Source: Obelidium mucronatum
Taxonomy: Eukaryota > Chytridiomycota > Chytridiomycetes > Chytridiales > Chytriomycetaceae
Reading direction: 5' to 3'
Assembly: GCA_025765595.1 (NCBI GenBank)
Contig: JAIVFH010000021.1
Span: forward strand, 186,001-250,000
Length of the DNA stretch: 64,000 bases
This document shows, one piece after another, positions 1-31,071 of the stretch; the stretch's first letter is position 1; each line of letters begins with the position of its first letter. The notes under the pieces are model-generated. The model searched no databases. It saw nothing but the letters and a program-made list of their open reading frames with translations, and was not told the DNA's origin. Both the position numbers and the translations under genes were made by a program.

Positions 1-2
1 CA

Positions 3-1075
3 GGAAAACTTAGCCAAATAAGAACCAAACCTGACGAAACCCTCCGCATAGCAACCTACAACTGCAGGGGACTCAATGACCCCACAATGATACAAATCAG
101 CCAATTAGTAAAAAATCACAACATTGACATACTGCTAGTACAAGAAACAAAGTGCACCGAAAAACAGGCACAAAAACTAATGAGTGCATATAATAGCGAA
201 TTCAAAGGATTGTCATACTGGACGAACGCAACAGGAACTACACATAAATCTGCGGGTGTGGGGATTCTAATCACGGAGAAATGGAATAGACACTACACAA
301 AATGCGAAAAAATTAGCTCAAGTCTCATGTCAATAACACTTTCGTTTAAGAAAGGTACAATCAGAATTGTCAACACATACTGGCCGTCTGACGACAACGC
401 GGAGAACACAAAGGACACAATGGTAGCACTCAACAGATGGCAGACCAGAGACAAGGAAAGTAACAGCCATATGGGTACAATAGTGTCTGGTGACCTTAAC
501 GAGGCAGAAACCACAAAAGACTGGACATCAGAAAAAGCCAATGGCAGACCGACCAAAAAGAACAGCCTCATCAGATGGCTAAGGGAATCAAACTTTGAGG
601 ACGCATATAGAATAATAAACGAAGAAGAAAGAAGATATACATACTTCAAAATGGAAACTGGGAGAATAATCCAAGCGAGCCGATTGGATGGAATCTGGCT
701 CGAACACAACTTGGCCAGATTAACATCCCAGTGCGAATGTCTGACAGAAATGCTAGACTATAGATACTCTGACCACACTCCTGTCCTCGCTGACATAGAA
801 ATAAAACATATACTCCAAACCTCAAATAAGCCCAAGAAGGAAGCTAGAACTGTGGTTGATACAGAAAAAGCAACAGAGGAGCAGTGGATCAAATTCCAAC
901 AAACCCTCGACATAGCCATAACAAAAAACAACCTTATTGCTGACCTAATGGAAATCACAAACAAATGGCAACTCAGAAAAGGGAACACAGAAAGAATCCA
1001 GGCGCACACCAAAATAGCAGACAGCATAAAATGCAAAGAGCCATCTGAAACTGAAAACCTATATGACCCCAAGTG
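3..1075 (+). pseudogene. LINE endonuclease domain (exonuclease-endonuclease-phosphatase fold)
   Basis: The frame is open from the window edge and carries the ordered motifs of LINE AP-type endonucleases: ATYNCRGLND near 47-76, LLVQETKC with the catalytic Glu near 132-155, GDLNE near 493-507, SRLDGIW near 679-699 and SDHTP near 768-782. This domain nicks target DNA to prime reverse transcription. All the catalytic motifs I can see are kept. The frame is then lost: the sequence matching the downstream linker continues in another frame from about 1063, while this one runs on as nonsense to 1256. The listed end is therefore the estimated frame break. Confidence 0.85.
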
Positions 1076-2665
1076 GGAAACAAGAAGTCATGGAAACAAT
1101 CAACAAAGTGGCCCAAACACACATGGACCTTATGAGCGAAATTGCACTAAAAACACTACCAACCAGGACTTGTGGCAAAGAACCAAAGAGGAGGCAAATG
1201 CACAACCAATGGATAGGCCTATTCAACAACCTAGAAACTTGCATCAAACAGGTTAAAAAATCGGAGGACAGCACAAAGGGAATTACCAGACAAAACAAGA
1301 AAAGACTGCAAAAGGCACTAGAAAAGACGGAACATGAATGGGCAAGACCACGGCCTGACAGCCAAAAAGACAACCTCCAAGAAGCAATGAGAGGAGAAAC
1401 AATACAATGGTTAGTTGAACAGCAAAATGAGGTTAGGAAGAAGATGGAAAGCGCAACAGCGCAAGCCATCACCCAAATGATTGAAGGAAACGTGGCAGCA
1501 AGGAACAATAGAATGAACAAAAACACAAAGAGATTCCTTAACAGTGTCCTTGACAGATTCCACAAAATAGACCTTGATAGAATTAAAGTCACTGACCAAG
1601 ACGGCAACAGCTATATTGAATTCGACAGTGAGGAAGTCAAAGTAGAAGTGGCGAAACAAATGAGGGAATGGTTCCACAGAAGACCAGATAAAGAATTCAA
1701 AGAGAACTCAATATTCCTCGATGCGTACAAACCATTGGAAAGTGTAAATGAGAGCATCTACGAGCCTATGAAAGCAACGGTCACAGAAGACGAAGTTGCC
1801 ACAGCACTGGAACAGCTTGGGACCAAAAAAGCCCCAGGAACCAGTGGAATAACCAAAGAATTAATCTCCAAGGGAGGAAGAGAAAGCTGGAAACTCGTAG
1901 TAAAAATGATTCAAACAAGTGAAGAATACATGGACTCCCCAACCAGTTGGCTGCAAGGAATCATAAACCCAATCCCAAAGAACCAAGACTGGGGTGCTGA
2001 TATATACTCAACAAGACCTATTGCACTCTTAGAAACACTATACAAACTCCAGGAAATGGTTAAAAAGAACAGACTCATCCCTATCCTTGAAAGAAACAAC
2101 GTGTTGAAAGGGAGAAACTGCTCAGTCCTCCCCGGAGAATCAACGGACCCTGTCATACACTGTGTAAAGGCAATCATAGACCACTGCATCGAAACCAAGA
2201 AAGAATGCTACATACTCCTGAACGACATCAAAAAGGCGTTTGACTCAGTAAGCCCAAGGGCAGTTATGAGAAGCCACAGAAGAATTAAGATCCCATATTG
2301 CTACTCAGCATGGAAATTCAATACACAACAAAGACTCACAGCAAAAATAAGAACTGCAGGTTGGGGAAACTGAACAAATACAAATTGGAACAATGATTCA
2401 ACAGGGCTCAGTCCTCGCGCCTATTGAATGGAGAATATTCTGGGACACAATCCTATGTGTGATTGACCAAGAGACCAAAGGCATAACACTAGAAGCAAAG
2501 ATTAAAACCAAATTCAATGGGAAAAGGTGGGAAACAGAGACACTATCAGAAGACATAGCTGCTCTGGCATACGTAGATGACACCAGCACTGCCGCTGGCA
2601 ATTGGGAGGAACTTGAGAAAACAAGCAGCCTCTGCTATATGAATTCCAAGAAGGAAATACTATAA
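1063..2665 (+). pseudogene. LINE reverse transcriptase, split by frame breaks
   Basis: Fragment 1063-2373 holds the linker and the RT fingers/palm, with KKAPGTSGI near 1828 and NDIKKAFDSVSPR near 2221, which contains the first catalytic Asp. Fragment 2393-2665 continues with QQGSVLAP and the active-site box AYVDDTSTA near 2566. The two frames are separated by a stop at 2371-2373. Downstream, 2700-4100 still shows thumb/connection-like coding in pieces (for example 2856-3311 and 3386-3733) but in changing frames. The polymerase is therefore inactive as it stands unless the breaks are assembly errors. Confidence 0.85.
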
Positions 2666-4109
2666 AATCTAACACCAAAAAAGTCAAAGTGATTGCCATC
2701 AACCCCACAAACCCCAAATCAACCCTGAAGTGGGGCGACCACAGCGAAGTGGAAGTCTTGGAAAAAGAACAAAGTGAGAGAATACTCGGAAACTACTTCT
2801 CAGCCGACAACTCAAATGCGAGAGCGATAGAAGAGATACGGCCCAAATCCAAACCATGGTAAATATCCTGAAGGACAAAAGAATCACTGACAAAAGTGCG
2901 ATCATGATCATAAACACTGTGCTATTCCAACAAATAAGATACAAATGGCAGACAGTACCAGTGTCCTCCTCGGAAGTGGAAAAATGGTTCACCCCAATCC
3001 TAAGACTAGTAAAGCAAAAAGCAAAACAGCCAATTAGCCTGCCAACCTCCCAACTAAAACATTCACAAATATATAATCTAATTGACTGGAACGACCAGTT
3101 CATGGTCGACAGTGTCAGCAACCTAATGATACATGTGAACTCTGATGACCTGATTGGAAGAATAACCAAAATACGACTAGCAAACCTACAAGAAGAACTT
3201 GCACTGCCGCATTGCCCACTTGAAACACCCTTCCCAGCCAAAGTAGGAAAAGGGACACACTACCTTGCCTCCATACTCAACAGAATGTTCCAATACAACA
3301 TTAGCGCATAAAGCAATTCAGACACCTGAACCAGGAAGGAGCAGAGAGACCGGCCTTTGGGAAGGTAGAGGGAGGGAGAACCTCAATGTATCATGCCATA
3401 GACAACTGGGCAATATACAACGAAATCAAACCATACCTCAAGAAATGGAATATCCTATTTGTAGAACAAATCCTATGTAGGAACAGCGAAAGAATACTTA
3501 GCCAGCAAGAAATGGCCATCAGATATCCAGGCTTCAAAGCAGGAAAAGAGAAATGGTTCAGTACCATCACACAATTACTTCAAAAAACTGTGGCGACAGG
3601 TGACTCCACAAGACTGATGAAGATAGCCAGAGAAACCCCAAACCCATTTGCTACCGAAAAATCGACGGCGAACTTACTAAGCCAAGCAAAGAAACAGGAT
3701 ATAGTATCATGGACAGATGAGAAGCGGATGTAAAGAACATGGACAAATAACAAAGTACAAACTCGAAAATGGGAGAGTGGAGTACACATTGAAACACCTG
3801 AGGGTTATGCCCCTTGAGACACTGCCAAAGTATACAGACCCTCAGCAACTGGGATGGGGGAAAAGCACAAGTCGGCTCATGCTGGGAAAAAAGCTGCCCA
3901 GGATGGCAAGGGGACTCCTGCATAATTGAATGGAATGGAGAAATCCAAGGAGAGAAAGCAAAAGCCAAAGGGACCCACCCTGTAATTGTTGTAGACAAAA
4001 ATGAACAAGAGACAGACATGGACGCTGACATATGGGAAATAGACAAGGCTCCACAAGAAGAAACAACATCAGATCCACACAGTGTAGATAGTCCTAAGCA
4101 CAAAGAAAA

Positions 4110-6352
4110 GCCTACCATGGAGAACAGGAGCTTACGGGAACAGCGCACAAGACGGCGCAAACCGTGCCAAGAAATTCTTCAGTTGCAATGACACACAAAC
4201 ACTTGAGGCAATTGGGACCAGGATTGACAATGGCCCAACCAACACACACGACATCATCTACACTGACGGATCTCTGAAAACCATTAACGGAAACCCCAGC
4301 ATAGCAGGGGCTGTGTTCGTCAGAGAAGGAATCAGCAATGGAAGACAAGTGAACTTTAAGCTAGAGGGGAATGCCCACTCAACAAATCCTGAACATATGG
4401 CAATGAATGCAGCACTTGTGGGATGTGGGAATGGCACAAGTACCATAAACATTGATAACATGGCGGTAATCACAACCTACAACAGACTCAAAGAACTCAA
4501 CTTTAATATCCACCCCAGAGAATTGAACAAGAAAGCAAACATTATGTCCACTGCAATCACATGCGAAATAATGAGAGAGAGAGGAAGGGAAGGAATAACA
4601 CAAATCCCAGAAGTTAAACATGTGAAGGGCCACAGTGGCGAAGTAGGAAATGAGCAAGCTGACAAAGATGCCAACAAAGGCCACATGGCCCCACTGCTGA
4701 CACAAAACATGCATGCCCAGTCATGTGTACAATTCATCCTTAAAGCCAATGGGAATATAATTGAAGGCGCCTATAGAAACAACCTCAAAGAAATTACCAA
4801 GGTTGCTGCACACCTGGAATGGATTGACCAGCCAAAACACAAACACATCAAAGAAGTCCAAGACTTAGTTGACTTGGGACTCACCTTCACTGTAATCCAA
4901 TGTGGGCACAAGACAACCTCACTGTTCACCAGCGAAAAACTTAGCCACTATCGGAAATACCTGATAAATGCGACACACAGACAGCTCCCAACCCAAAAAG
5001 AGATGAGACGAAGACACCAAGACCTATACCCAGATGGGTGCTGTAGGGTATGCCTTACAGATGAAGAGGAAACCAATGAACATCTATGGAACTGCCCAGT
5101 AATGCAGGAGATCAGAGAAGAAATCATGACCAACTTCATTGAAACACTGAGTATGAAAATTGAGGAAGAATGCCAGAAAGAAAACAAAGGGAAACAACAG
5201 CAACCCAACAGCCCTGAGGAAGTATGGTCAAGGTTACCAACCAAAAGCAACCTGGAAGGGAAAATGGAAAAAGAGGATAACCTTACCCAGGAAGAAATCA
5301 GACAAAAGCTAGAAAAATGGTTTAGAAACTGGATGGGACGACCATTAACACAGCAAACAGAGGAAGAGGAAGACACAATTAACATGAAGACAGATAAATT
5401 CACGTTTGAACAGATTGCAGGATATGGCCTAATACCGGAAGTAACACACGAATGTATCAAAAGATGTGGAGTCCAGAAGGCTGAAAGCATAAGGAGAATT
5501 ATAATACAAACCTGGAAAGACCTAAGATACGAAGTAAAGGAAAAAATATGGAAGTACCGCAACGAAAGGACAATTGAATTCGAACTTACATGTGGAATCA
5601 CCGAAAAAGCCAAGGCAAGGAAGAAGGAGAAAGGCTCCACTAAAGAGGGGCCTAGGAACAAAACCACAGAAAACAATGGAACAAGGACAACCAAAAACAC
5701 AAAGATAAAAAATGAATCAATATGCCAACTATGTGAAGGAGAAATAAACCCAACCGGGAACCACGAATGCTCAGGAAGAATGGGGAGAGTCAAAAAGGCG
5801 ATCAAAACTTTAATTGAAGACCGAAAAGGAATTAGGAAAATACAACCTGGCTGGACGTCAACATCGAGTAGATATATGAACGCATACACCAAAAACGAGG
5901 AATTCGAATACAAACCCAGGAAGAACCAGGAACCCGGGAAAAAAGCCCAAAAACGGAGCACACCAGAAATTGAAAAAGAAGTAACTCAGGATGGGAAAAG
6001 GAAGGAAGAGAGACCAACAAAGAGGAAACTAGAAGAACTGCAAGACTTTGAAGATAGAGCGTTCAAGGAACTAAGAAAAGGCAAAATGACACTGGACCAA
6101 ATAAGCCAAGAGATAGCGGAAGAGAGGCAAAGACTGGGAATACCTGACGAGCTCGAGGAAGAGGTACCGTCACGCCCAAGCCACAGGAAGCCAACCACAA
6201 GAACAAGTCCAACGCGAGGAGAACCCCAAGGAACAAACAACTGCCAAAGGGGAGAGGGAACGGGGGAGGGAACGGGGGAGGAGGGGAGGCTGGATGGGGG
6301 CTCTCTTTTTCCCCACAGGGGTTTTTTAATGAGGCCCCCGGAGGGTCTCTAG
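4110..6352 (+). pseudogene. LINE RNase H plus zinc-finger C-terminal region
   Basis: This frame is open through the element's end, with a first in-frame ATG at 4313. The RNase H domain begins upstream of that ATG with IYTDGSL near 4256, followed by NIDNMAV near 4450 and KHVKGHSGEVGNEQADKDA near 4615, giving the expected acidic and His residues. A C-x2-C...H...C finger of the zf-RVT type (CRVCLTDEEETNEHLWNC) lies near 5041-5098. A second Cys/His cluster (CQLCEGEINPTGNHEC) is near 5722-5770, followed by a Lys/Glu-rich tail. The stretch is intact here but cut off from the RT upstream. The C-terminal 449 residues recur almost unchanged in the copy inside Dicer. Confidence 0.85.
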
Positions 6353-6581
6353 ATGTGGAAGCTCCTGGTGAGCTGGGGGATGGGAGGGGGGAGACGTTAT
6401 GGGTGGAAGCAGACGGGAGGTCTGCAAAGGGGTTTGGGGTGCTAGCCGTGCCTACAAGCCAGAATGTGGAGTTGGGTCTTATCATACTGCTTCAGGAATG
6501 GGGGAGGAATGGTAGTTCGGCAAGGTGTTTATTACAAAATACATCCACATCAAACAAAAAAAAAAAAGCAGAGACGGGGGC

Positions 6582-14097: not shown

Positions 14098-14157
14098 ACT
14101 GTAGCAGGGAAGTTTGCGGTTGCCCTTCATAATGAAGCAAGTGTTAGTACTGGTAAG

Positions 14158-14229
14158 GCCCGGGTAGCGCAGCGGCAGCGCATTTGCCTTCTAAGCAAGT
14201 GGTCGTGGGTTCGATCCCCACCTTGGGTG
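14158..14229 (+). tRNA. tRNA-Arg (anticodon TCT)
   Basis: Cloverleaf by eye: acceptor GCCCGGG/CTTGGGT with GU pairs, D stem GCGC/GCGC, anticodon stem TTTGC/GCAAG around loop CTTCTAA, and T arm GTGGG-TTCGATC-CCCAC. No intron; CCA is not encoded. It starts 60 bp beyond the right end of the inverted repeat, and a T-rich tract follows. Confidence 0.92.
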
Positions 14230-14319
14230 CTTTTATCTTATTAGTATAAGACTTTCAGACCACAGAAACCCTAACATGCCTTAGACCCTCCAAGTTTCCA
14301 AAACACAATCAAAGACTCT

Positions 14320-14392
14320 TGCCGCCTGCGTGGATCGAACACGCTACCTTAAGATCTTCAGTCTTACGCTCTCCCAGATGAGCTAAGGCGGC
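14320..14392 (-). tRNA. tRNA-Phe (anticodon GAA)
   Basis: On the minus strand: acceptor GCCGCCT/AGGCGGC, D arm GCTC...GAGC, anticodon stem TAAGA/TCTTA around loop CTGAAGA, and T arm GCGTG-TTCGATC-CACGC. No intron. It is convergent with the tRNA-Arg 90 bp away. Confidence 0.92.
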
Positions 14393-14734
14393 TCTGAGCC
14401 TCTCAGTTGGTAACGGTATACCCATCGATTAAACCGGTATACCTATTGATTAAACCCTAATGAAACCATGTGTGTATACTGACTTGAGGCTGTTGGGAGC
14501 CCTCAGCTCTTGTCGGGCCAAGATAAATGATTTGGGCCATCAGAGAAAATTGTTTTGTGCATACAAATCAAACATAAGCTTTATGAGCTCTTTGGAACAC
14601 TTCCCATCTTGAGCAACTGCCCTTAAACACATTTGAAGTTGCTAAGGGCCTTAAATTGCATACTATTGAAAGCTTGCCAGTATGCATGTTTGGAAGATGC
14701 AACACATCCATTTGGTCTAGAATTTTGACTGTGT

Positions 14735-15321
14735 TGTAACATGGCCACACAGGATTCCTACCTCCCCCCTTCCTTCAGGTAGGTAGCGGTGGTTCCAGGG
14801 TTACAGACCAACCCACCGCATTTTCAACACTCTCCCCCAATCTCCAATCTCTCACTCCCACATGTTGCTGCGTGTGAAAGTTCAGTAGTTCACAGTTCAG
14901 CGGCCTGATGGCGCATGATACTGACTATGCAACTTGGACTCTAACATTTTCCAAATGTTAACAGCAACAAATAAAGAAGAACAAATAGGAATAAAGGAAT
15001 AACATAAATAAGGAGAACAACAACACATGCACATGTCCCCACTTCTTATGTCACTTGCCTCACTCCTGCCATCCACCTTTGTCTCGCAACTCGCCAATGT
15101 TTGACTCAGACCATGCCACTCCCGCGCCATGGGTCACCCAGAAAATACTTATTGTTATATTGCGTCCTAACCCTAACCCTAATCACAACCCACCAAAGTA
15201 AGTAAAACCCAATTCCTCCAAATAATAATTAACATATAAATAATTTAATAAGTAAAAGGGAAATAAAGATAAGAGTAAAAGTAATACCCTTAGTGAAATG
15301 GAATTCTGGTTTCCCACTTCA
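14735..15321 (-). repeat. Solo-LTR-like dispersed repeat, copy 1 (about 587 bp)
   Basis: Shares its whole length, with small indels, with 55380-55919. The ends are TGTAACA...CACTTCA on the plus strand (TG...CA), as in LTRs. It contains several AATAAA-like motifs. No clear target duplication is left at this copy. A telomere-like CCTAACCCTAACCCTAA run at 15166-15183 lies inside it. It sits between the tRNA-Phe and tRNA-Leu genes. Confidence 0.6.
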
Positions 15322-15813
15322 GTGCAATTGAACCAGGCTTTTGGTGAATCTTATCTGATGCAGTTCTAGTGACCTTAGGGAGAAATTGGACTTCTAAAAA
15401 CTTAATCCTGTATTTCAGTGAACAGTTGATTTGTGCCATTTCTTTGCTAGTCTGTTGAGACACTGAAATTACCTCCACTTGTGCCACCTGCCAGGTTCCT
15501 CCCCAAAAAAGCATATACCTTTTATTGACTGGCAATTCAATTCACCAGCACTCAGGCAGCACATTTTCCTCAGAAGGGATAACACAAATCCTGTGGGAGT
15601 GTTGCGCCTGTGATAGGGACCTAGAGTCTGGGTGTTTGTTGTTCCTAAACTCTCTTTTGTGGTTCTGATTATGCAGAACTTGCGCAATACAGACCATTTT
15701 GGTCAAATGTGATGCGCCCTGCCATTTCCTGTACATCAAAGTATTATGCATAGGGTTAAGTAACAAACAGCCTCTATGATACAATGAGCAGCTGTGGAGT
15801 TGGAGACCATCAA

Positions 15814-15895
15814 GGGCAGATGGCCGAGCGGTCCAAGGCGTCACGTTAAGGCCGTGATCTATTTGTAGGCGTGGGTTCGAATCCCACTCTGCTCA
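15814..15895 (+). tRNA. tRNA-Leu (anticodon AAG)
   Basis: 82 nt with a long variable arm (CTA/TAG stem). Acceptor GGGCAGA/TCTGCTC, anticodon stem TCACG/CGTGA around loop TTAAGGC, and T arm GTGGG-TTCGAAT-CCCAC. The long variable arm and anticodon identify leucine. No intron. Confidence 0.92.
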
Positions 15896-16995
15896 TATAC
15901 TGCTTTTATGTAACAAGTAAGGAGGAAATAATGTTGGAATATTTGGGTTTTTCTTTATGACCTCACATTGCCGAAAAATCTTATTACAAGTTTTGCATCC
16001 TGGTCCTGGCGGCAAGTTCCTTCATGTTCTTCATGTTGAGAGTATGGATATGGTGAAAAAGGGGTTCCTGGTGAGAATAGTCATTATGAGTGGAATGAAA
16101 CCCTAACTGAACCTTTGAGGGTTAGGGTTAGGGTTATGGGTTTCAGATGCACAGACTAATGTGCCAACCACCACAAGAAAATTCACTTGCGCCGTATAGT
16201 GTTGCTTCCTGTGAATGTCTGAGCCTCATACTATGTGTGCAAGCCTTGTCGCAAAGTCAACTTTCCTGCCATAATGTCAAATTGGGTTTCTTCCCTGCTT
16301 ATTCTGCGCCGTCTTGAGCTTCATTGTTGCCACAAACTTCCCATTCCTTCTGTCAACACCAAGCGGCTGCTCTTTTGCAGCTGCAAGAGATTGCAACAGT
16401 TCAGTGAACAATCAGTCGGAGATTGATGATGAAGCTATTCAACTGATTCTTGGAAGGATCTTGCCACTGCCAATTTGATGGACTCTGACAGTGGAGAGAG
16501 GGGAGGCTTCCATCCAGAAGCAGAATTCAAATAAAGTTTGGGACACTTACATGCTAGAGCCAGTGCCAAATAAAGTGGCCTTGAACCAAAAGGGGAGAAC
16601 GGTGGCCCACCATTAAGCAATTGGAAGAAGCTTGATGGAGTAACAGATCTTGCTCTGCCACAAACATTAATGAATATCAAAATGCCATATGTTAAAGATC
16701 AATTGCTTTTCTTCAATCAGTGGGTTTGGCTGGGAAAGAGCCCAATTCAATCAAAATAGTAATGATGTTTAAGATCAATTGCTTTGGCTTCAATCAGCAG
16801 GCTTGGATGGAAAAGAGATTTTATTTGTGGATGTATGATAAATATTATTGTGGGTTCTAAAGCAAGAAATGCAAACCTGGATTTTATTTGTGTGCGTCAA
16901 TAATGAATATTATTGAGGGTTCTAAGGCAAGAAATCCAACCTAAGAATGCTACTTGGGGCTGCTCTTTTTTTTATTGGCATTAAAAACCCAACGT
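15896..16995. other. No recognisable gene
   Basis: About 1.1 kb between tRNA-Leu and the 3' end of Dicer. It holds a short telomere-like GGGTTAGGGTTAGGGTTA at 16119-16136 and a direct repeat around 16800-16950 (the phrase TTATTTGTG and neighbours occurs twice). Frames in 16400-16680 look like decayed coding but I cannot assign them. Confidence 0.5.
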
Positions 16996-19900
16996 TTACA
17001 AAACCAAAGAATACCCTGCCTGCATAAAATGAGATTTCCAAGGTTGTACCAAAACCCTTTGAATCAAGTGCTCAGTGACTTGAGCATCACAGCCAGAATC
17101 CAAAAAAATAGCCCCAATGATGGACTCTAAAATATCTCCAGCCACCTTTGGTGCAGAAGGTAAACTATGCCAAAATAAGGGTTTCTGTGTATCTGTTGCT
17201 TTTCTTTGTTTGAAGATGCTTATTTGATTCCCAAATTCTGCAAGTGAGTGAGCCAGGCCAGGTGTTGCATGAAGAAGAAGCTTGTGAAGACCTAGCTTGA
17301 AAGTAACAATTGCTAGAAATTGATTGTTTACAAGCTCTGATTTGAGGCTGGAGAGTTTGCCAGGCTTATGTAGTTCAGGAAGACAGAAGAGCATCTTGGC
17401 AATTAAATAACCAAGTACAGAATCCCCTAGTAGAACAGATTAACGACTTCAGCTTTTGTACTATTTGAAGTGAATCAAATACCCAAAAACTCTAGCCTCT
17501 GGAAACAGTAAGGAATGCCATAAATGTGAATGGCAGACACATGTGCCAATGCTTCCAAAGCCAAATTGTTGTCTTGGAATCGATAACCCAGTTTCTTAAA
17601 CAACTGGTCTCCAAGAAGCTGATGATTTTGGTTGGAATTCTGATTGATCGTACTGGAACCCAACATATTGGCTTTCAATCGAATTGACTCAATTCGGAAA
17701 GAATAAGCCGTCAAAGACTCTTCAAACTCATCCCCAAAAAATACTCGGACAGCCTTCCCCCCACCTACGACCCCTGTTGAGACAACACATGCGCCAACAA
17801 TTGATTCCACAAGATCAGCCGCACTTTTATCTGAAACATGTTGAGTTTGTGGGGTGCCTGTGGGCAGCAACCAAGTTTTCCTTGAAATTGGCTCACAAAG
17901 CAACACATTAGGTAGCTTATTGTGAATGCTCATTTTCAAAAGATTCTTATTCCGTTCAAGCAGAACCCGAGACCTTGATAACCAGCCCTCGTCTCTGGAT
18001 GGATTCAGTGTAAACAAATGCAGGGATAGGTACATTTTGAGGAATGAATCACCCAGAAACTCGAGACGCTCATAATCTTGCTGGCATTGTGCTCCAGCTG
18101 AAGTAAGTGCAGTTTGGAATAGGGCAGGTGTTGAGTAGTCCAGAAGTTTCAAAGACTGTTGAATCTCGATGGTGCAGAGTTGATGGTACAATGTTTGAAT
18201 AAGAATCGGCATGAAACAAGCAGTTTCCGTGAAGAGACTGAACGGGATTGGGTAGGGAGTACAGAATTGAGGGATCAGATAAACGATATCTTGCCGAGAC
18301 GTTGTTTCAGAACGACCACTTTGGTGCATATGGGGAATCAAAGAAGCAAGTAAAACAGGTTGATTTTCGAGAATGGTATCCTGGACATTCAATCGCTGTT
18401 GGTAGTAAGCCGCTAAGGAAGAAAACCCCTCAAACTGGACCGAATATGGTGAAACATGGTGCAGAACGGCATGCACTTGAAACTTGCGACCGTAAAATGC
18501 CCAATCTTCAACAATTAGCTCCTGATCTAGTTCTTGGAATAAAACAGCGAAATTCACTAACGCCTCTGCACTTGGCTCATGCTGTTTGAGTTCTTGGTCG
18601 TCATTTTGTGTCTGCTTGAGTTCGCCGAACTTGGTCAAAGATACTGCAGCAAGCATATCCCAATCAACCAATTCATCAGCCTTGGCGGAGTCACCCAAAT
18701 TTAGAAGCGCACTTTCTCCGTCAACAAGAGGAACCACAGAAAGCAAATAATCATTTCTTCCACCACTTGTTGGAGGCGTTCTTCGAAGCAAACCATTAAA
18801 GAATATCGCATTGGTGAACCTTTGAATCAATTCCTCCCGAGCCCCATTCACTTGAATGGCCGTTGAGCATGGTATAAATCGTACAGATTGCGGTTGTTTA
18901 TCAATCAACAAGATGTGGGTATCATCAACGATTTGATTTGGAAGCTTGAAAGGAAGAACCACGGCCATATCCAAAACGCGACTATTCTCAGATAATTGAA
19001 ATAGAACCAGATATCGTTGATCAATCTTGTTTGTGGCAGTTTCGACTTGTAAAAATGCTTGGGGTATATACACGTTGTAGGGAGCTACACAATAAGCATC
19101 TACTTGAGATTCTACCCCAGTGATGGAAGTTATATTGACATCTTCGGACGGAGCTTTTGACTGAAGCTTGACATCAAAACGCACAGGTCTCAGAAAATCA
19201 TCAAAACTGCCATCCGTGTATAGTCTCTTGACACCTTCCATTGCGGCGCTTCGTTTTGCCCCCATCTTTGAGCGGTGAGGCTTTCCTGAAATAAAATGAC
19301 AGCTCGCGGGAGCGTTGACAGGCAGCTGCAGAACTGAAACCCAGCCCATTTCACATAAACCCGCCGAGTTCGGTACAAGAGCTGGCCCGGTGTGAAATAC
19401 TGGCATCGAATCAGCAAATGAATCCTGTGGAAGCAGGCTGCAGTACTGATGAATTGCAGAAACGGCCGCCAAAGATGACATTTTTGCTCCCGAAGGAATC
19501 TCAAATATATCATCTTTTGTTAAGTTGATGGCATGTTCGAGTACAGAATCTGGTTCGACATCAGAGGCGGCTTCTTCTCTGTTCACAAGAAACTCGTTCA
19601 TTTGGACTTCATCTCCCTCCAGTGTTTTGAGGGACTCGATTGTTCGGGTATCGTCTTCTTGAACAAGCAATACATAACTGCTGTTTTTGTGACGCGCCCG
19701 ACCCCGAGATTGGATATTGGAAATAACCGTTTTGACATTATCAAAACGAACCACCAAATTGCATGGCTGTATATCAATTCCTTCTTCTGCAACCTAGCCA
19801 AAACAACGAGTCAAAATAAATATGCAACCCAGCAACAGAGAGTGGCACCTTCGTCGCGATTAATAAATTGATCTTTCCGGGTTGAAAGTCAGCCAAGATC

Positions 19901-21149
19901 CTTTTTTGAGTGTTGATTTCCGTGGGGCGATTGGTGACTATCGAATTAGCTGCTGCTGCGGAGAAGACATTCTTTCTGGTGGAGCCGCCAGCAGCACCGC
20001 TGTGACCTGTCAAGCATTTTGAACGGACAAACTCCAATCCTTCACAACGTGGAATCAGCGCATTGAGGAGCCTCGCAGTCAGTCTCTTTTCTACAAAGAC
20101 AATTCCGCAAAATGACTCTGCAGATGCTGAATATGGTTGCAAAACTCTAACAAGCGACATGAATTTTCCTGCGAAAGGGATGAGACAGAATCGAGTGTTT
20201 CGAAAAATATCCACGAACCGCTGATGGTATCCAACAAATTCTTTGACAGTGGTGAACTGCAATTAAATTCAAAGCCCTTTATGTCTTGGTTGGTCAAGGG
20301 GGTAGTATCACTGATTTCGCCGTCTTCCATTTCCACATTCTCATCACTGGCGCACAATTGTTCGAAAACTATTTTGGCTGCAGATTTCGTGAATTCATGG
20401 AATAGATGGCTTTTAGCCATGGCTGAAAGCAAAGACTTCATTAAATTAAAAAATAATCCCCCCATGCACTTTCGGCAACTTACTTTCTGCATCAACAGTG
20501 TAAAACTCCCTCTTGGGATTATCGCCCAAAAAATCAGCTCCGCAAGCAACATCGTCAACATAAATCGAATCATCTGATAAATCTTTAAAAGTTGATTCAA
20601 TGGCCTCCGATTCTCTTTCGGCCAACTTCCTCAAATGATGGTCCCTCCTCTCCCGAATGACGGCGAGAGATTTGTCCAGAGAAAAAATAGCATCCCTCAA
20701 AAACACATCACACACCCATGCGCCAAAATCTTCTTGTACTCCTCGTGCGTCGCTGTGTAATTTTCTAAGTTGGGGTATATCTGCGATTCCTTGTTCTTCG
20801 AGCTTCGTGAGGATATTCGAGGAAGCTGACAATGGGTTTGGGGTGTATGTGACGATGGTCTTGGTGGGACTTATCACATAATGTTGAAGGTCACTGTGGG
20901 AGTCGGCGGTTATCGCCTTTGAACAAAGATTCGTTTCGAGTTGGCTGGAGTAACGATTATAAGAAGACAAGAAAGAAAAATAATCCCCGATTATACTTGA
21001 TGGAGAGCTGAATATTACTTGAAGCGTTTCGATTTGATATTGGCGAAGCTGTCATTCCGAAGACACGCGGTTTTTCAGCGTCAACAGTAGGAACGTAATG
21101 AAGTGCCATGATTTGGTTATAAGTATTGTTTTTCCGAGCGTTATGGCAT

Positions 21150-21170
21150 TCGTCAAACACAATGAGATTT
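21150..21170 (+). repeat. Target-site duplication of LINE copy B, left
   Basis: Contains CGTCAAACACAATGAGATTT, preceded by T. The identical 21 bases stand at 22753-22773. On the coding strand they encode the Dicer residues just before and into the DECH box. Confidence 0.96.
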
Positions 21171-22752
21171 TTTTTTTTTTTGTTTGATGTGGATGTATTT
21201 TGTAATAAACACCTTGCCGAACTACCATTCCTCCCCCATTCCTGAAGCAGTATGATAAGACCCGACTCCACATTCTGGCTTGTGGGCACGGCTAGCACCC
21301 CAAACCCCTTTGCAGACCTCCCGTCTGCTTCCACCCATAACGTCTCCCCCCTCCCATCCCCCAGCTCACCAGGAGCTTCCACATTTAGAGACCCTCCGGG
21401 GGCCTCATTAAAAAACCCCTGTGGGGAAAAAGAGAGCCCCCATCCAGCCTCCCCTCCTCCCCCGTTCCCTCCCCCGTTCCCTCTCCCCTTTGGCAGTTGT
21501 TTGTTCCTTGGGGTTCTCCTCGCGTTGGACTTGTTCTTGTGGTTGGCTTCCTGTGGCTTGGGCGTGACGGTACCTCTTCCTCGAGCTCGTCAGGTATTCC
21601 CAGTCTTTGCCTCTCTTCCGCTATCTTTTGGCTTATTTGGTCCAGTGTCATTTTGCCTTTTCTTAGTTCCTTGAACGCTCTGTCTTCAAAGTCTTGCAGT
21701 TCTTCTAGTTTCCTCTTTGTTGGTCTCTCTTCCTTCCTTTTCCCATCCTGGGTTACTTCTTTTTCAATTTCTGGTGTGCTCCGTTTTTGGGCTTTTTTCC
21801 CGGGTTCCTGGTTCTTCCTGGGTTTGTATTTGAATTCCTCGTTTTTGGTGTATGCGTTCATATATCTACTCGATGTTGACGTCCAGCCAGGTTGTATTTT
21901 CCTAATTCCTTTTCGGTCTTCAATTAACGTTTTGATCGCCTTTTTGACTCTCCCCATTCTTCCTGAGCATTCGTGGTTCCCAGTTGGGTTTATTTCTCCT
22001 TCACATAGTTGGCATATTGATTCATTTTTTATCTTTGTGTTTTTGGTTGTCCTTGTTCCATTGTTTTCTGTGGTTTTGTTCCTAGGCCCCTCTTTAGTGG
22101 AGCCTTTCTCCTTTCTCCTTGCCTTGGCTTTTTCGGTGATTCCACATGTAAGTTCGAATTCGATTGTCCTTTCGTTGCGGTACTTCCATATTTTTTCCTT
22201 TACTTCGTATCTTAGGTCTTTCCAGGTTTGTATTATAATTCTCCTTATACTTTCAGCCTTCTGGACTCCACATCTTTTGATACATTCGTGTGTTACTTCC
22301 GGTATTAGGCCATATCCTGCAACCTGTTCAAACGTGAATTTATCTGTCTTCATGTTAATTGTGTCTTCCTCTTCCTCTGTTTGCTGTGTTACTGGTCGTC
22401 CCATCCAGTTTCTAAACCATTTTTCTAGCTTTTGTCTGATTTCTTCCTGGGTAAGGTTATCCTCTTTTTCCATTTTCCCTTCCAGGTTGCTTTTGGTTGG
22501 TAGCCTTGACCATACTTCCTCAGGGCTGTTGGGTTGCTGTTGTTTCCCTTTGTTTTCTTTCTGGCATTCTTCCTCAATTTTCATACTCAGTGTTTCAATG
22601 AAGTTGGTCATGATTTCTTCTCTGATCTCCTGCATTACTGGGCAGTTCCATAGATGTTCATTGGTTTCCTCCTCATCCGTAAGGCATACCCTACAGCACC
22701 CATCTGGGTATAGGTCTTGGTGTCTTCGTCTCATCTCTTTCTGGGTTGGGAG
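21171..22752 (-). mobile_element. 5'-truncated LINE, copy B, inside Dicer exon 5
   Basis: Same family as copy A, beginning at the point equal to about 4987 of that copy. It carries an uninterrupted 449-codon frame (22734-21385) with the CRVCLTDEEETNEHLWNC finger and the second Cys/His cluster, the same G-rich 3' part, and a 3' poly-A that reads as poly-T from 21171. Only about half a dozen residues differ from copy A by eye. A 21-bp target duplication flanks it (21150-21170 and 22753-22773). 5' truncation, poly-A tail and long duplication are the signature of target-primed reverse transcription. Confidence 0.96.
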
Positions 22753-22773
22753 TCGTCAAACACAATGAGATTT
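22753..22773 (+). repeat. Target-site duplication of LINE copy B, right
   Basis: Identical to 21150-21170. Removing the LINE and one copy restores an open Dicer exon through the DECH motif. Confidence 0.96.
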
Positions 22774-23361
22774 ATCTAAACGAATGTAAATATCTGGGTC
22801 AGGAGTCATGTGTTGAAACAAACCTCCTTCATTGTCAATATCCCTCGCCGCAGAATCATTTCGAAAATCGCTGGAGTCATAACCATGCATCCGCATGCTT
22901 TAATTTCGTTGCTCCATTTTTGAATGGACCACTGGAAGAAAGGCATAAACAGTTCGTGTTTTTGGTTTCATCGTCTTACGTTATCAACCTTTAGATCCCC
23001 GTGGTACAATCTGACTGCGAAATCGCAATTTTGACTCAAATAGTTTGCTTGCTGGGTTGCCAGGGGAACTTGTGGAGCCATAAACACCGAGACTCGTTTC
23101 TGAATTCAAGTTGAGACAGAGATCGAATGCCACAAGTCCATCGCACCTGGCCTTTCAAGTAGTCCCGCTCATAGTAATATTTGATCAGCAACAGGGCTAT
23201 CAGCGTCTTTCCTGTCCCCGTAGGAAGGGCCACAAGAGTATTTTGCGTCTAAAGACAACCCAAATAATCAGAGCCAAAGAGAGCAGCCACAGCGGAGTTA
23301 CTTTGGCAGCCTCAAAGACAAATCGTTGATATTCGCGAGGTTTGCACTCTTCAGATGCCAT

Positions 23362-23415
23362 GCAGTTTTGCTCTGTTTTAGTTGTCCAACAATTTGTTTT
23401 CAAAAATAGAACACG
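23362..23415. promoter_or_regulatory. 54-bp divergent promoter interval, Dicer/THP3-like
   Basis: Only 54 bp separate the Dicer ATG (minus, 23361) from the THP3-like ATG (plus, 23416). If both starts are right, transcription of each gene must begin in or across this interval. The THP3-like first exon is short and spliced with a clear GTAAAA donor, which supports that start. Confidence 0.6.
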
Positions 23416-25925
23416 ATGAGTTACCCCACCCCAGCGTCGGCCAGTTGGTAAAAAGAAAAGAGCGACTTTGCCTCGAATGGTTTTCAAACAACGTCCAGGT
23501 TTCCCGCTGGCGCCAATGTCCGCACGGCAATCTCGACAGCCGCAATTCCGCCTGGCGCTCCCACGGACATCAACAGTCCCGAGTACGCTGTGTGGTACCA
23601 GTGGTACATGAGCCAGTATCTGCAGCAGCAGCAGATGGCGATGCCAGCGGCGCAACAGCAACAACTACAACAACTACAGCCACAACCTCAACAATCAGAG
23701 CAGCCGCAATCGTACGTGTAGCGTGTGTGCACGTTCATTGAATTGTCTTTAAAGTGCATCCACGTAATAAGAAAACTGCAAATGGCGATGGCTGAGCTGG
23801 CAATGAAGTCGAAAGCCGGTGCAACACTCTCGCCTCAAAAGACTCAACAAAACCAGGAAATGCTAGCAAAAGCGTCGCAGTTCAAACCTCATTCAAAAAG
23901 TATTGCTGAATTTGTAACGCTCTATTGTAGGTGTTAATTAACATATCTATCAGAACCAGCCTATATTCCTGTGAAGACAGGGCTTTCCGATGCAGCCGCA
24001 GCTGCAGCAAATCTGATAAAGCCCTCGTATGCCTCGGTTACAGCTGCGTCAACATCTAGTACGACGGCTGCACCAGCCGGCCCGAATCCTTTAACGAAAC
24101 TGAAGCTAAAGTATTTCATCCGAATAACATGCAAAGCCTCATCTTATTAACACGCGCTGCAACCACTCTGAAAGAAACTTTGTCGATAGAGTTTTCAACG
24201 CCGCCGGGCCTGCCAGGAAACCGGAAGCAGAGCGATACTTGGGGCCATTGATTCAATCGATTCAAAGCAAAGGAGCCATGGACACGACTGATTGGGATAA
24301 AATGAGCATACCAGCCTTGTGCGTATGAAAAACTTTATATGTATCCTGAAAGGTTTATTAATCCCTCCATCACACCAGTCTATTAACAGACCCGGGCACA
24401 GAATCATCCTCTCCCGCCACGACGACGGCCTCTAAAAAGCGTAAAAAGTTTTCCCTCGACCTCCTTGAAGATCGTGGAAATGTTCCCATCTCTCCGACAA
24501 ACACCACATTACTGAAATCCAAACATCCGAAACTCACACCCGCAGATAACCCCCCTTCCATTTCCACAGCATCGTCCCCTGCCCTAGATTCTCTACCGCA
24601 ATATCTCCGAACAGAAGAAATTGCTCGACGCGAGGAACGGGCCCGTAGGTTCCAAGATGTGGACGGTGCAGCATCAAAACAAAAGCAACGCGACAATGCA
24701 AAAGCGGCGCGTGAACGAGCGCTTCAGGCAGCCGCTTTTGCGCGAGGAGAAGAGAATCCAGACGTTATTGATTGGGACGAATATACGATTATTGGAGTGT
24801 GTGAACGACTGGAAAAGAGTTATTTGCGTTTGACTTCAGTTGGGTTTCAATTGCAATCTCTCCTCTTCTGCGTCTTGTGTGCTTTTTTTTATGAATGTCC
24901 TTCATTGTGAAATAGGCACCGGACCCTGCAACCGTTCGTCCTTTGCATATTCTTCGACAAACACTAGACTTATTAGGTCGAAAATGGAAACAAGATCAAA
25001 ATTACACGTATATTTGCGATCAATTCAAGAGTCTGCGGCAAGATTTGACTGTCCAACGTATCAAGAATGATTTTACAGTCAAAGTGTATGAATCACATGC
25101 TAGAATTGCTCTAGAAAAGGTTTGCTTTGTTGTTATTAATTTTTATACCATCGCTGCTTTAACTGTTAATAAAAAATAAGGGCGACGTTGGAGAGTATAA
25201 TCAATGCCAAGCACAACTCAAGGAGCTATATCGACACGGGCTACAAGGTTGTAAAGATGAGTTTTTGGGATACAGAATTCTTTACATGGTCTACACAATG
25301 AATCGAACAGGTATGTGTTTTGTACTGAAAATTAGGATATTAATGAAGAAATTAAACATTAGAGCAAGTAAGAATCTTGAGCGAACTGACACCAACCGAA
25401 ACCTCCGCTCCTTCTGTACAACATGCCCTGGGCGTTCGAATGGCAGTCAGCACAGGAGACTATCATACACTATTTAAGCTATACAACGCATCTCCTTGTA
25501 TGTCAATATACCTCATGGATCTGTTTATTGAGCGGGAAAGAATCAAAGCGCTCAAGACGATATCGCGGGCGTTCCGGCCGAGTTTAAAAGTTTCTTATTT
25601 GGCCAAGGAGCTTGGGTTTATAGTTGGGGGCGAAAACGCGACTTTGATGGATGAAGGAGTAGATTCCAAAAACGTCAAGGTTGGAGTGGAGGATTGCTTT
25701 TCTTGGTTAAAGGGGATGGGTACACCGTTTGTTGAAGGACCTGAAGAAGATGTAGAAGTCCTTATTGGTAAAGGAAAGAAGGCGAAGACTGTGGTTAAGA
25801 AGGTAAGAAAGGAAGTTGGCGTAATGGAGGCGGCAGTTGATTTGAAGGCCGCTGCTGTCTTCTTTGTTGGCAAAATGAATGAAGTCCTCGGAAAAGGCGT
25901 CGATATTAAAGGACAAATACATTGA
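23416..25925 (+). CDS. THP3: THP3/LENG8-like protein of the SAC3/GANP family
   Basis: Multi-exon gene. Exon 1 encodes [11 protein letters not shown] and joins across a GTAAAA...CCAG intron to a Gln-rich segment starting [20 protein letters not shown] low-complexity middle follows with a Lys-rich [14 protein letters not shown]. The conserved block begins [20 protein letters not shown] near 24765, then [20 protein letters not shown] across an intron, then [17 protein letters not shown] (25194 on), and ends in a helical PCI-like C-terminus closing at IKGQIH. The order matches fungal Thp3 and animal LENG8, nuclear proteins linked to mRNA processing and export. At least seven short GT-AG introns. 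No frame break seen. Confidence 0.85.
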
Positions 25926-26007
25926 TATTGAGTATTTTTTTGAAGGGTTCCATGTGGATCATGATTTTGAACAAATAAATAATAGTTTTGAGTCAACATA
26001 ATAACGC

Positions 26008-27260
26008 TTAGAATACATCTTGCTTTTCAACCTTGTAATATTCATCCCCGCCCAAGACACCATTCTCGTGAATCTTCAACTCGCTCTGCGAAAACACCTC
26101 AAAGACAACGGGGCATGCCAATTTCATCATAACCGCCAGCATTGTTTTGTTTGACAAGCCAGTGTATTGCGTTCGCTTATTCCAGTAATGCACACCCACC
26201 GCTTCGTCTGCAAATTGCGCAGCCACGTTGCATTGATCAGTGAAACGGTCGAAAAGACTTCCTCGGTTTTCATATTGAATAGGAAACATTCGCGACATTG
26301 GTGCAACCGAAAGGCCCTCACACGCCAAATGCGGAGACTGAGATTAACAGTTTTTTTCGTACGCTCGTGTGACCATATCCGGACCATTGTAGCCCCTAAA
26401 GCAATCGACATCAGCTGCAAAGACCAAACAATTACTCCACTCACCAAGTATATCCTTGAAAGGTGTTAACAAACTCCTCCATTACAGCCCACATGAACGC
26501 ATCTCTTCTTTCTACACTAAAGAAGGCATTATTCATTCTGTTTGGATCTTGCATGACGATACTTCGCCCCATCGCTCCAACAGGGTTCAAGCTCAAAATA
26601 TCCAAATCCAAGTAGACCCCGCCTCTTTTATAAAGAATTCCGAGTCGGAATGCGTTCCCAAGATTTTGGTCCACCCATTTCGACTCTTTCCATCGTTGTT
26701 CGAGCCACCATTGTTCCAGCGGTGTCTGGAGCATTGCTCTTTCCCAGTCCAGTGGAATGATTGCAATTCTGTTTCGCATATGAGAAGGTAGAGCGGATTT
26801 CCACTTTGAAATGGCGGTTTGAAAGGCTAAGGGGTTTTTGGCATGGATTCGGATTGTGTGGTGGGGGTTCTGCCGAGCTGCTGATTCGATGGAGCAAAGA
26901 TATTTTGGATTTTCTAATTGCTGGTTGTAATGAAGGAAAAGGATTTCGGAGGGTATCTTGGTTGTTGGTGTGATATGAGTTGGGCTTGTTGCGTTGAGGA
27001 AGTGGGTTCCCTGGATGCACAGCCCTGTCAATGTAGTGATTGCAGCTCCTTTGATTCTGTACTATACTTTCATTCGCTTGAAGTGATGATCGAAGCTCAA
27101 TTGCTGTCTTGATGAGGGTTTGATCAGGTTTGGGAACAGACTGCATTCGGACAGGCCGAAGGAGGTTCAGCGAAACCAGAAACGTCAAGCATACGATAGT
27201 CGCAACTACGTGAATGGCTTTGACGCGGGGAGGAAGAATCATGATTGAAAGTCTTGGCAC
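26008..27260 (-). pseudogene. GT32/Gb3-synthase-like glycosyltransferase, paralog 1 (broken)
   Basis: Minus-strand type II membrane protein: a hydrophobic anchor (HVVATIVCLTFLVSLNLL), then the core LHYNQQLENPKYLCSIESA, WVDQNLGNAFRLGILYKRG and the DXD site GGVYLDLDILSLNPVG. An intron near 26395-26444 leads to a C-terminal domain with GLSVAPMSRMFPIQYENRG. The family moves sugar from a nucleotide donor in the Golgi using a metal-binding DXD. Two lesions are visible: a +1 shift near 27018 between the stem and the core, and an in-frame TAA after YEKNC near 26350. Paralogs 2 and 4 have no matching stop, so this copy looks dead. Confidence 0.8.
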
Positions 27261-27285
27261 AGTTCTATTTTAAGATCAGTTTCAT

Positions 27286-28624
27286 TCAAAACCTCATTCC
27301 CTTTTCCACTTCTTTGTAAGCTTTCCCCCCAAGCAGCCCATTTACTCCTATTCCAAGCTGTTGGTCGGAAAATGCGCGAAATACACCTGGGCAAGCGTTC
27401 TTCAATACAACCGCCGTCAGGGTTTCGTTGGAAATCACCGTCTTTGGGGTACGTTTGTTCCACCAGTGAAGCCCAACAGCCGTCTCTGAAATAGTACGCA
27501 ATAAATCACAATGATTTGTCCAGTCTTCAAACAGCCAAGCCCTCTCTCCGTACTTGATGGGAAAGAAACTTGCCGTTGGGGCAACATTTAACCCATCGCA
27601 CACTCCGGATAATTCAGTTGATCCGCAAGTTTTGTTATAAAATCTTGTGATCATCTCAGGACCGTTCCAACCCCTGCGAATATATGTTAAAGAAACCACT
27701 GTGGACTCAAAGTGTAATACCAGCGATATCCATTGAAAGCATCAACGAACTCTTGCATAACAGCCCAAATAAATTTATCCTCCTTGGGGAAACTAAAATA
27801 CGCGTTATTGAATCGCTTCGAATCCTGCTTCGCCAGACTCCTCCCGATTCCGGCCAATGGATTCACACTAACAATATCCATATCCAAATAGACACCACCA
27901 TATTTCCAAATAAGGCCCAGTCTCCATGCGTTTCCAAGGTTCTGGTTAACCCATTTTGATTTCTTGTATCTTTCTTCCCGAAACCAAGGCTCCAAAGGCG
28001 TGTTCGTCATCATTGACAGCCAGTCCAGCTTTCTTATCACTATGCGGGTTGAAACACTTGTATCAATGGTGCTGCGCCAATTTTTTATAGCTGCTTCGAA
28101 TGTAACAGTATCGACAACGTGGATGATAATAGTATGAAAAATATTCTGAATAGCTGCAGATTCCACAGAGCACAAGTATTTGTTGATTTCGAGGGTTGGG
28201 TTGTAGTGAAGGAAATGAATCTGTAGAGGTATATCATTGCGTTTTTGACTGATGGAATACATTGAGTTTTGAGATAACGGACAAGTCTTTGGGGTGCGTC
28301 ATGTGCTCAATGAATTGGGCGCATCCATCTAAAACTGGTTTCGCCGGTTGCGGGGCTGGCAGAATATTGGGTGACAAGTACGACCAAATCTGACTCTTCA
28401 AAACTTCTATTCCCGATATAAGGCGTCGAAGCAATAATTACAATAATGAATAATAATAGAAGGATTATTTCGAGGAGTTTTCGCTTGACAGTGATTGATT
28501 TTCGGTTTCCTCCTTGGCAAATCAGATTTGACCATAAGTTCGAGGTTCGCCTTTGTGGGAGCCGGGCATTCTCTTGCTTTAAAGCTCCAAACGGTGCAAG
28601 CTGAGTTGTTTGACCTGAAAGCAT
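27286..28624 (-). pseudogene. GT32/Gb3-synthase-like glycosyltransferase, paralog 2 (5' part disordered)
   Basis: Anchor LLEIILLLLFIIVIIAS, core FLHYNPTLEINKYLCSVESA, WVNQNLGNAWRLGLIWKYG and DXD site GGVYLDMDIVSVNPLAG. The same intron position as paralog 1 (after GYRW) leads to a C-terminal exon with NGPEMITRFYNKTCGSTELS and VGLHWWNKRTP. The catalytic core and C-terminus are open. Between the anchor and the core the frame changes twice (near 28370 and near 28260, the second beside an A5 run). Either small introns are missed or there are indels; the catalytic part would still be translatable from an internal start at 28262, but without the anchor. Confidence 0.75.
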
Positions 28625-29363
28625 TTTAAATCACCAATAATTTGACCAGGGGCCAATCACTAAAACTAGCAAGCAAAGCGACTCGCCCAAAGCTATGACG
28701 AAATTTTCTAAGAGATCAGTAGTTAATGCGTCTTGTTGCAGCCTTGCGGATTCTTGAATTAGTCGGGTGCTTCCGTTCTTGGAAGGTTGGACTCGGACAA
28801 TGTCCAGACAGCCATTCTCGCCTATACGCTATTCCTCGATTCTGTGAAAGATAAGCGTGTCAATTTTTTTTCCTCATACATTATACAGGGAGTTTGTGAT
28901 TCGGTGGCTGACATGCACTCAAACAGTCACTGAACCAAACTTCGACCTGAAAGCGTTTTTATAATCAATTTGAATTTTTGTACACGAGTTTTTTGATTCG
29001 AACTGACCTCGAAGAGTCGAAGGATTGAACTATTGAACTATTCCCATTCCTCAAACAGAACTGTCGCGTCCCGCACCGCACTGAAGTTCACTGTAACCCG
29101 AACGTTTATAACGCTTCGAAAATTTTTGTCCAACCGAACCTATTCCACTATTATGTAATTCATCAATAATATTCAAATCACTTGATTATCACGTATTGAA
29201 TAATTCCTCATCATTATCCATTAAATTTAATACATTTTACAGCCAGAAATGGGATAAATTAACTCTTTCTGCGGCCCGAGGAGATCTTTTTTGTGAAAAG
29301 AGAGTGTGCAGGCTGTTTCGGAATATTCGGAACGAGAGGTTGTGTGGTTCAAAATTTTATTTT
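28625..29363. other. Intergenic, nothing recognised
   Basis: About 740 bp between paralogs 2 and 3. AT-rich, with no convincing reading frame or repeat. It probably holds the promoter of paralog 2. Confidence 0.5.
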
Positions 29364-30737
29364 TCAGCGTTGCATGGAATCATCCGTTCGCATTCCAAGT
29401 TGTGAATGCGTAAACGTTCGGACCAAAGCGGGGCAGTGAGATATCATAGTGATTCGCATGATGGAAGTCTTTCGCAAATCTTGAATATTCTTGAGCCGTT
29501 TGTCCCAATAGTGTATTCCGACAGACCTTTTAGAAACAGTTAATATATTGAGCCTATTGGAGAAATCTAATCATACTCGTCTGCAATCTTGCCCATTTTT
29601 TCGCACGTTTCGTCCCAATATGTCTGATCAATAGCACTTGTGTAATTAAACGGGAAAAACCTCATGGGATCCGCCAGTTCAATATTCCTGCATTCCCTTA
29701 ATTTGCATTTTCGTAATGTTCTCGTTACGGCAGCCGGTCCGTTGTGTCCCCTTTTGAGATGATGAATGGTATGTAAGGGTGACCCATTCCTCACCATTTA
29801 TCTCCGCGGAATCCGCGAACAAACTCCTTCATTACTTCCCAAATGAATAAATCTCCGGCTTCTACACTGAAGAATGCGTTGTTTGTGTTCTTTTTATCTT
29901 GACGCGCAACAGTCCGTCCCAAACCGGCCAATGGATTCACACTTATAATATCTAAGTCCATATAAACCCCTCCGTGTCTAAAACATCCCGGTTTGTTGTG
30001 GGCATTTACATTCTCATATTGTCCAACACTCACTTCCACAAAAGACCAAGTCGAAAAGCATTTCCAAGATTCTGTTCGGGCCATTTACTGGTAGCCCATT
30101 TTCGATTTTTATACCATTCAAAGAGGGGTGTTTCAATCATGGCTTCTTCCCAAACCAATTCTTTAACGACAACTCGATCAGTTAATCCAGCATTCTTTCT
30201 CCAAATGTCAATTTTTTCATCGAAAACGGGCTTATTTCGGGCATATATAGTTATCAAGTGATCCCTATTTTGTCGTGCTGCTGATTCTACGGAACATAGG
30301 CGGCGTGGTTGTTCAAGATAGTCGTTATAGTGCAAGAAAAATATCTGCTTAGGAATAACTGAAGGCGGAAAATCGTCGAAAGCATATTTATAGTTGGCCG
30401 ATAAGTAATATGTTCCTGGGGATGCGGCTCGATCAAGAAAGTGTTGACAAGACGGATTTGTTGTTGTGATCTATGTATTTGTTTTGAGGCTCATCAGCGC
30501 AGACGACGTACATAGTAAATACTGATCGGAAAATACTTCAATATTAATACTTGAATTCAGTATTTGCTTGGGAATTTCCAATGATTCGTCTGCCGGCAAG
30601 TCTGTTGGTTTGCTCTGATCTCCTGTCGCCTCGTCCATTCCAAACAAGCGAAACCCGAAATAAATGCTAGCGAGGCTGAAAACCAAGAGGCTTGTAATTG
30701 ATGCTTTCGTGGGCCGCAGTACCCCAAGTTTTCGCAT
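29364..30737 (-). CDS. GT32/Gb3-synthase-like glycosyltransferase, paralog 3
   Basis: Starts MRKLGVLRPTKASITSLLVF with an N-terminal anchor. A Cys-containing stem (SCQHFLDRAASPGTYYL) leads to the core FLHYNDYLEQPRRLCSVESA and WPEQNLGNAFRLGLLWK. An intron falls exactly before the DXD site GGVYMDLDIISVNPLAG, unlike paralogs 1, 2 and 4. Further introns follow GDKW and ADE. The end is SVGIHYWDKR...QLGMRTDDSMQR, with the stop at 29364. All joins keep frame with GT-AG ends, so this copy may be functional. Its C-terminus is divergent and short compared with paralogs 2 and 4. Confidence 0.75.
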
Positions 30738-31071
30738 TTATTTATCGAGAAGAAGTTTCGCGTTCTCTCGTGTCTCACGTTTCAAGATATTATTCCGGTG
30801 CATCGAATTGTGCACTTCCATTAGTCTACAGAGCCTTCTGACTCAAGCACTGCAGGGCAATGGACTCGCCAGAAGAGTTTTTGTGAAGCGGTTCGAACTT
30901 CGAAAATGATAAATGCTGCGTATTTCTGGTCCAAACGCCGCAGCGATGAATTTCAATGCAGTGCATTTATTTGGTGAAATAAGCGTCTTGAACTATTCCA
31001 GATGGCGAGGTTTAAAAAAATTGTGTGCATGCAAATAATATTAAAGTAAAAAAAGAACTGTTCACAAGACA
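30738..31071. other. Intergenic, nothing recognised
   Basis: 334 bp between the start of paralog 3 and the end of paralog 4. No coding signal seen. Confidence 0.5.

Follow-up and report, generated by a model that had tools for sequence, protein, structure and literature searches.

The window analysed here is a 64,000-nucleotide stretch of DNA from Obelidium mucronatum, a chytrid of the family Chytriomycetaceae, and corresponds to positions 186001-250000 of contig C21 in an assembly of 48.3 Mb and 694 contigs. A Dicer gene interrupted by a LINE, hereafter Dicer-A, occupies 16996..23361 on the minus strand, with its start ATG at 23361 and its stop at 16996. The gene was recognised from its open frames, splice sites and Pfam domains, and from a 100% match between the Dicer frame at 17475-19793 and P0001, a hypothetical protein of O. 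mucronatum. The exon model was built from open frames, splice sites and the copy of the gene on contig C139, with the exons after exon 5 placed by hand. Exons 1-4 (22824..23361, minus strand) carry the nucleotide-binding helicase motif PTGTGKT in the window sequence; their lengths were taken via the collinear C139 copy, and the introns between them measure 53, 47 and 48 bp. Exon 5 (20997..22775, minus strand), which reads INLIVFDECHNARKNN at the target, is split by the LINE, and exons 6-10 (16996..20944, minus strand) encode the remaining helicase, the Dicer_dimer domain and both RNase III domains, the borders of exons 5-10 having been read by hand. Scanning eight frames of the gene against Pfam gave ResIII, Dicer_dimer and two RNase III domains above cut-offs, so that the frames of the interrupted gene hold the DExD/H helicase, Dicer_dimer and paired RNase III domains that define a Dicer. 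No match to PAZ (PF02170) was found at E values up to 1 in these eight frames, nor in P0001-P0004, and Dicer-A could still contain a degenerate PAZ domain. The public annotation of P0001, in which Helicase_C, Dicer_dimer and one RNase III domain were detected, is wrong at both ends. The model begins past the LINE, downstream of DECH (MALHYV...), and extends into the intron at 17426-17482, where it terminates with most of the second RNase III domain missing.

The LINE insert (21171..22752, minus strand) is 1,582 bp long, is truncated at its 5' end and lies in the sense orientation of the gene. Its counterpart at window positions 4985-6566, where a long LINE copy has its 3' end, is 98.8% identical to it, with 19 mismatches and no gaps. 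On either side of the insert lies one copy of a 21-bp target duplication, at 22753..22773 (minus strand; upstream in the sense of the gene) and at 21150..21170 (minus strand; downstream), and the two are identical at 21 of 21 bp. The element ends in a poly-A tail of 11 A in the sense direction (21171..21181, minus strand). These measurements bear out the initial sequence-only reading, which had described a 1.58-kb, 5'-truncated, poly-A LINE with a perfect 21-bp duplication in the DECH exon. That reading had also placed the insertion between the Asp-Glu and Cys-His codons; the DECH motif (helicase motif II) is indeed hit, but the exact break interrupts the Glu codon, and the downstream duplication copy retains DECH complete. 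The LINE frame that it had called intact is a single stop-free frame of 456 codons (21385..22755, minus strand) that corresponds to no more than the C-terminal portion of the LINE protein. The predicted nick site would leave a TTT end able to pair with the poly-A, consistent with target-primed reverse transcription.

The nearest relative of the insert is the long LINE copy at 1..6567 (plus strand), which was identified by sequence match and domains, is clipped by the left edge of the window, has broken frames and carries a poly-A. Its frames encode endonuclease (PF03372), reverse transcriptase (PF00078) and RNase H domains, an order that we take to be typical of Tad1/I-type elements, whereas the insert is too truncated to encode endonuclease or reverse transcriptase. 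Three protein relatives of the last frame of the long copy were found, two from O. mucronatum and one from Rhizoclosmatium globosum. The genome contains at least 68 matches to the insert (40 of 121 candidates were scored). Among the matches listed, a single further long copy comes close to identity (98.8%), the remaining long copies (about 1.4 kb or more) reach at most 91%, and shorter pieces reach up to 95%; the heavy load of young elements suggested earlier is thus not seen for this LINE. When 30 loci were scanned, all 19 rows (representing 17 distinct places) that extend to the 3' end of the family carried an A tail. No target duplications were detected at four other LINE loci with the 5' border in view, where the borders are alignment edges.

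Contig C139 aligns to window 16355-21170 at 96.8% and to 22747-26744 at 97.0%, and has a single copy of the 21-bp target and no LINE insert. A 31-base probe spanning the left flank and the larger part of the target, searched with up to two mismatches allowed, was found on C21 and C139 only, in both cases exactly. Since C139 carries the same locus with an empty site, the insertion is polymorphic within the assembly, and a chance origin of the insertion pattern is ruled out. An uninterrupted form of the site, for which a check had been proposed, is present in the assembly itself. C139 becomes collinear with the window again at 43901-48457 (96-97%). Between its two anchors it lacks 4.9 kb relative to the window, a length close to that of a Copia-like frame at 39292-43857, and this element may therefore also be missing on C139; a direct repeat of more than 80 bp around the element was sought and none was found. 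From this collinearity we infer that C139 is the other haplotype of the Dicer-A locus. With window 24400-38000 as query, neither the window's own contig nor C139 appeared in the list, although C139 aligns up to window 26744; we treat this as a limit of that search.

In the 760 bp adjoining the site, C139 differs from the window by five one-base insertions and one one-base deletion, and four of the five insertions lie in exons according to the hand-read borders. The adjoining 3.4 kb show no length differences, and eight occur in 4 kb on the opposite side of the site. As assembled, the C139 Dicer-A model stops after 160 residues. The neighbouring SAC3/GANP-type gene (23452-25925) also shows a one-base length difference between the window and C139 near its start, and there it is only the C139 form that is in frame. 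For this reason, and because the two copies of another Dicer-type locus, on C10 and C265, break frame at different places, we lean to sequencing error rather than real decay as the source of the C139 frame breaks.

A further copy of the 3' part of Dicer-A lies on C309 (L009, C309:25000-29657). It matches window 15907-19701 at 95.5% and is about equidistant from the window and C139, and the contig ends within the gene, before the insertion site. In the 2,798 columns that all three 3'-part copies share, they differ pairwise by 95, 103 and 92 substitutions and carry 52, 41 and 49 private changes. By these counts, the window, C139 and C309 form a three-haplotype star, a pattern that a simple diploid does not account for; triploidy, a mixed culture and local duplication are candidate readings of the C309 copy. 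The RNA polymerase family gave 10 matches on four contigs. For the chaperonins (41 matches), two contig sets look pair-like by reading (C1/C302 and C22/C391) and the other genes look single. This pattern suggests that second haplotypes are only partly represented in the assembly.

To compare constraint among the three copies, dN/dS was calculated over 885 codons of the C-terminal part of Dicer-A, with 13 complex codons and all gapped codons dropped. Haplotype-specific changes (synonymous/non-synonymous) numbered 19/14 in the window, 17/16 in C139 and 20/15 in C309, giving dN/dS values of 0.22 for the hit haplotype in the window, 0.28 for C139 and 0.22 for C309. Constraint is not relaxed on the hit haplotype, which means either that the insertion occurred recently or that the part downstream of it is still working. 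The divergence of the LINE from its nearest copy (1.2%) is smaller than that between the haplotypes (3.4%, window versus C139). Both results agree with the earlier proposal of a recent insertion.

RNase III domains gave 13 matches on eight contigs (C18, C46, C210, C21, C309, C139, C10 and C265). The sequence-only reading had advised looking for a second Dicer, and one was found on C18, where P0075 is annotated as a protein of 1,654 aa with DEAD, ResIII, Helicase_C, Dicer_dimer and RNase III domains. The C18 Dicer has GSGKT and DECH motifs, and its long frame contains two RNase III stretches and a PAZ match that is sub-threshold only. Its DNA occurs once in the assembly, and it is distant from Dicer-A (27% identity over 277 residues). 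A third Dicer-type locus is represented by the frame-broken copies on C10 and C265. In a tree of 11 rows, the C18 Dicer groups with Siphonaria, Chytriomyces, Physocladia and Spizellomyces proteins, and Dicer-A groups with the C265 Dicer, Rhizoclosmatium proteins and another Physocladia protein, with no resolved order inside this second group. RdRP gave eight matches on four contigs and Piwi 20 matches on nine contigs; some of these contain stops, which may be introns. An RNAi-deficient state, in which intact Dicer, Argonaute or RdRP would all be gone, does not describe this assembly, where the C18 Dicer is annotated as complete.

Collectively, these results make it likely that a LINE entered one Dicer-A haplotype by target-primed reverse transcription, with probable loss of function of that allele, and that RNAi was probably retained elsewhere. 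The insertion would have occurred after this haplotype split from the others. Exons 1-4 encode 130 residues (counted on C139, from which the window does not differ in length there), and exon 5, read from upstream, gives INLIVFDDSQPRKR and then a stop. Transcripts from the normal start should therefore read 130 Dicer residues plus 14, yielding a 144-residue stub. Such a stub would lack RNase III and most of the helicase, so the allele is probably a loss-of-function allele. The suggestion that this allele has lost full-length Dicer is accordingly upheld in a conditional form, in that the LINE should prevent its production. RNAi capacity would probably be kept by the complete C18 Dicer, and perhaps also by the C10/C265 locus and by uninterrupted copies of Dicer-A. 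Three observations stand against this explanation: the C139 copy is frame-broken as assembled, the 3' half occurs in three copies about equally far from one another, a pattern at odds with a simple diploid, and no target duplications were detected at the four other LINE loci mentioned above, whose borders are alignment edges. The insertion is real and recent, affects a single haplotype of one Dicer gene among several, and is ordinary in kind. The target duplication, poly-A, 5' truncation and empty site elsewhere in the assembly are features it has in common with any 5'-truncated LINE, as are the endonuclease and reverse transcriptase, which are encoded by its family and found in its long relative. 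As an insertion it is no different, and it is notable only for its Dicer target. With one strain carrying a Dicer gene both with and without a transposon, the hit and the empty haplotype can readily be compared.

It is also conceivable, though unlikely, that Dicer-A is now dying, one haplotype by the LINE and the C139 haplotype by its frame breaks, with a distant Dicer sustaining RNAi. If true, this would be a natural case of the death of an RNAi paralogue with a transposon among the killers, and the silencing targets of the paralogue would be directly testable.

We regard it as improbable that the LINE allele still yields a product beyond the stub. A downstream start could yield a protein that has Dicer_dimer and both RNase III domains but a defective helicase; alternatively, splicing of exon 4 to the LINE 3' region could produce a Dicer that is almost complete and carries LINE-encoded residues ahead of DECH. 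From the LINE 3' region into the DECH exon, 140 codons are free of stops, four in-phase acceptor-like sites lie in this stretch, and constraint downstream of the LINE is not relaxed. However, the normal acceptor upstream of the LINE is intact, the intron required would exceed 1.2 kb compared with 47-53 bp for the introns measured, and the recency of the insertion by itself explains the constraint. The start of P0001 downstream of the LINE would also favour such a product, but P0001 reads into the last intron and ends inside it and hence looks like an automatic model, and its start was rejected as evidence. A C-terminal product with PAZ and both RNase III domains had been envisaged earlier; the Dicer_dimer and both RNase III domains are indeed encoded, and such a product is possible, but PAZ is undetected at E values up to 1 in the eight frames scanned.

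The broader claim of the sequence-only reading, that the strain has lost full-length Dicer through the LINE and that this loss explains a load of young transposons, appears very improbable. The insertion itself is real, the neighbourhood holds a LINE copy of almost the same sequence as well as a Copia-type element whose 188-bp repeats are 98.9% identical, and the frame breaks in C139 could be read in the same direction. Against this, the C18 Dicer is annotated full-length, the C10/C265 Dicer locus is present, no burst of the LINE subfamily is seen among the matches listed, and Dicer-A has been under purifying selection until recently. We therefore rejected strain-wide loss on the basis of the empty site on C139, frame-broken as that copy is, and the complete C18 Dicer; where haplotypes have not been purged from an assembly, a gene broken on one contig must not be taken for loss of a pathway. 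That the LINE in Dicer-A is an assembly mis-join is scarcely credible and was likewise rejected, for although haplotype contigs differ by one-base lengths and haplotigs are unpurged, a mis-join would not duplicate 21 bp of the empty-site sequence perfectly and precisely where the LINE begins and ends, together with a proper A tail.

Other fungi provide points of comparison. Cryptococcus neoformans has two partially redundant Dicers, Dcr1 and Dcr2 (PMC6643885, as far as the portion consulted describes them), and O. mucronatum likewise has more than one Dicer gene, so that one hit need not end RNAi. Unlike in C. neoformans, redundancy in O. mucronatum is something we infer, between proteins as distant as Dicer-A and the C18 Dicer. 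According to the accessible part of PMC12810828, RNAi-deficient Cryptococcus isolates mobilise transposable elements, and RNAi loss causes the mobilisation. The common theme is that transposon activity is considered alongside RNAi-gene loss, whereas O. mucronatum keeps a complete second Dicer and shows no LINE burst among the matches listed. Dicer and Argonaute are reported in all chytrids investigated, with RdRP absent from several Rhizophydiales (PMC9926174, in the sections available). O. mucronatum resembles those RNAi sets in its Dicer and Piwi matches and differs from these Rhizophydiales in having RdRP matches. RNAi has been lost in several fungal groups (PMC7763443, in the text available). 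The parts consulted of PMC9926174, PMC6643885, PMC12810828 and PMC7763443 do not mention the Dicer-A locus, and Obelidium is absent from that of PMC9926174. Among the papers listed by a literature search, none described, by title and start of abstract, a fungal Dicer gene carrying a transposon, which is not proof of absence, and a search on O. mucronatum gave other subjects only, as judged from the listings.

Several further features lie in the window. A DXD-motif glycosyltransferase gene (PF04488) is located at 31635-32507, and the nearby frame at 26628-27269 had no Pfam match. An inverted repeat (6568-9599 and 11066-14097) begins directly behind the poly-A tail in which the long LINE copy ends; its arms of 3,032 bp differ by one mismatch and enclose a 1,466-bp spacer. 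Four frames from this repeat had no Pfam match, and it may represent either a mobile element or a fold-back introduced during assembly. The 188-bp repeats that flank the Copia-type element lie at 59053-59240 and 63491-63678. The region at 14080-17230, which holds three tRNA genes and the 3' end of Dicer-A, recurs in inverted orientation with 100% identity at C21:178854-182005, and C139 contains a similar inverted pair (6832-9959 and 13574-16702), each member of which is 94% identical to window 14080-17230.
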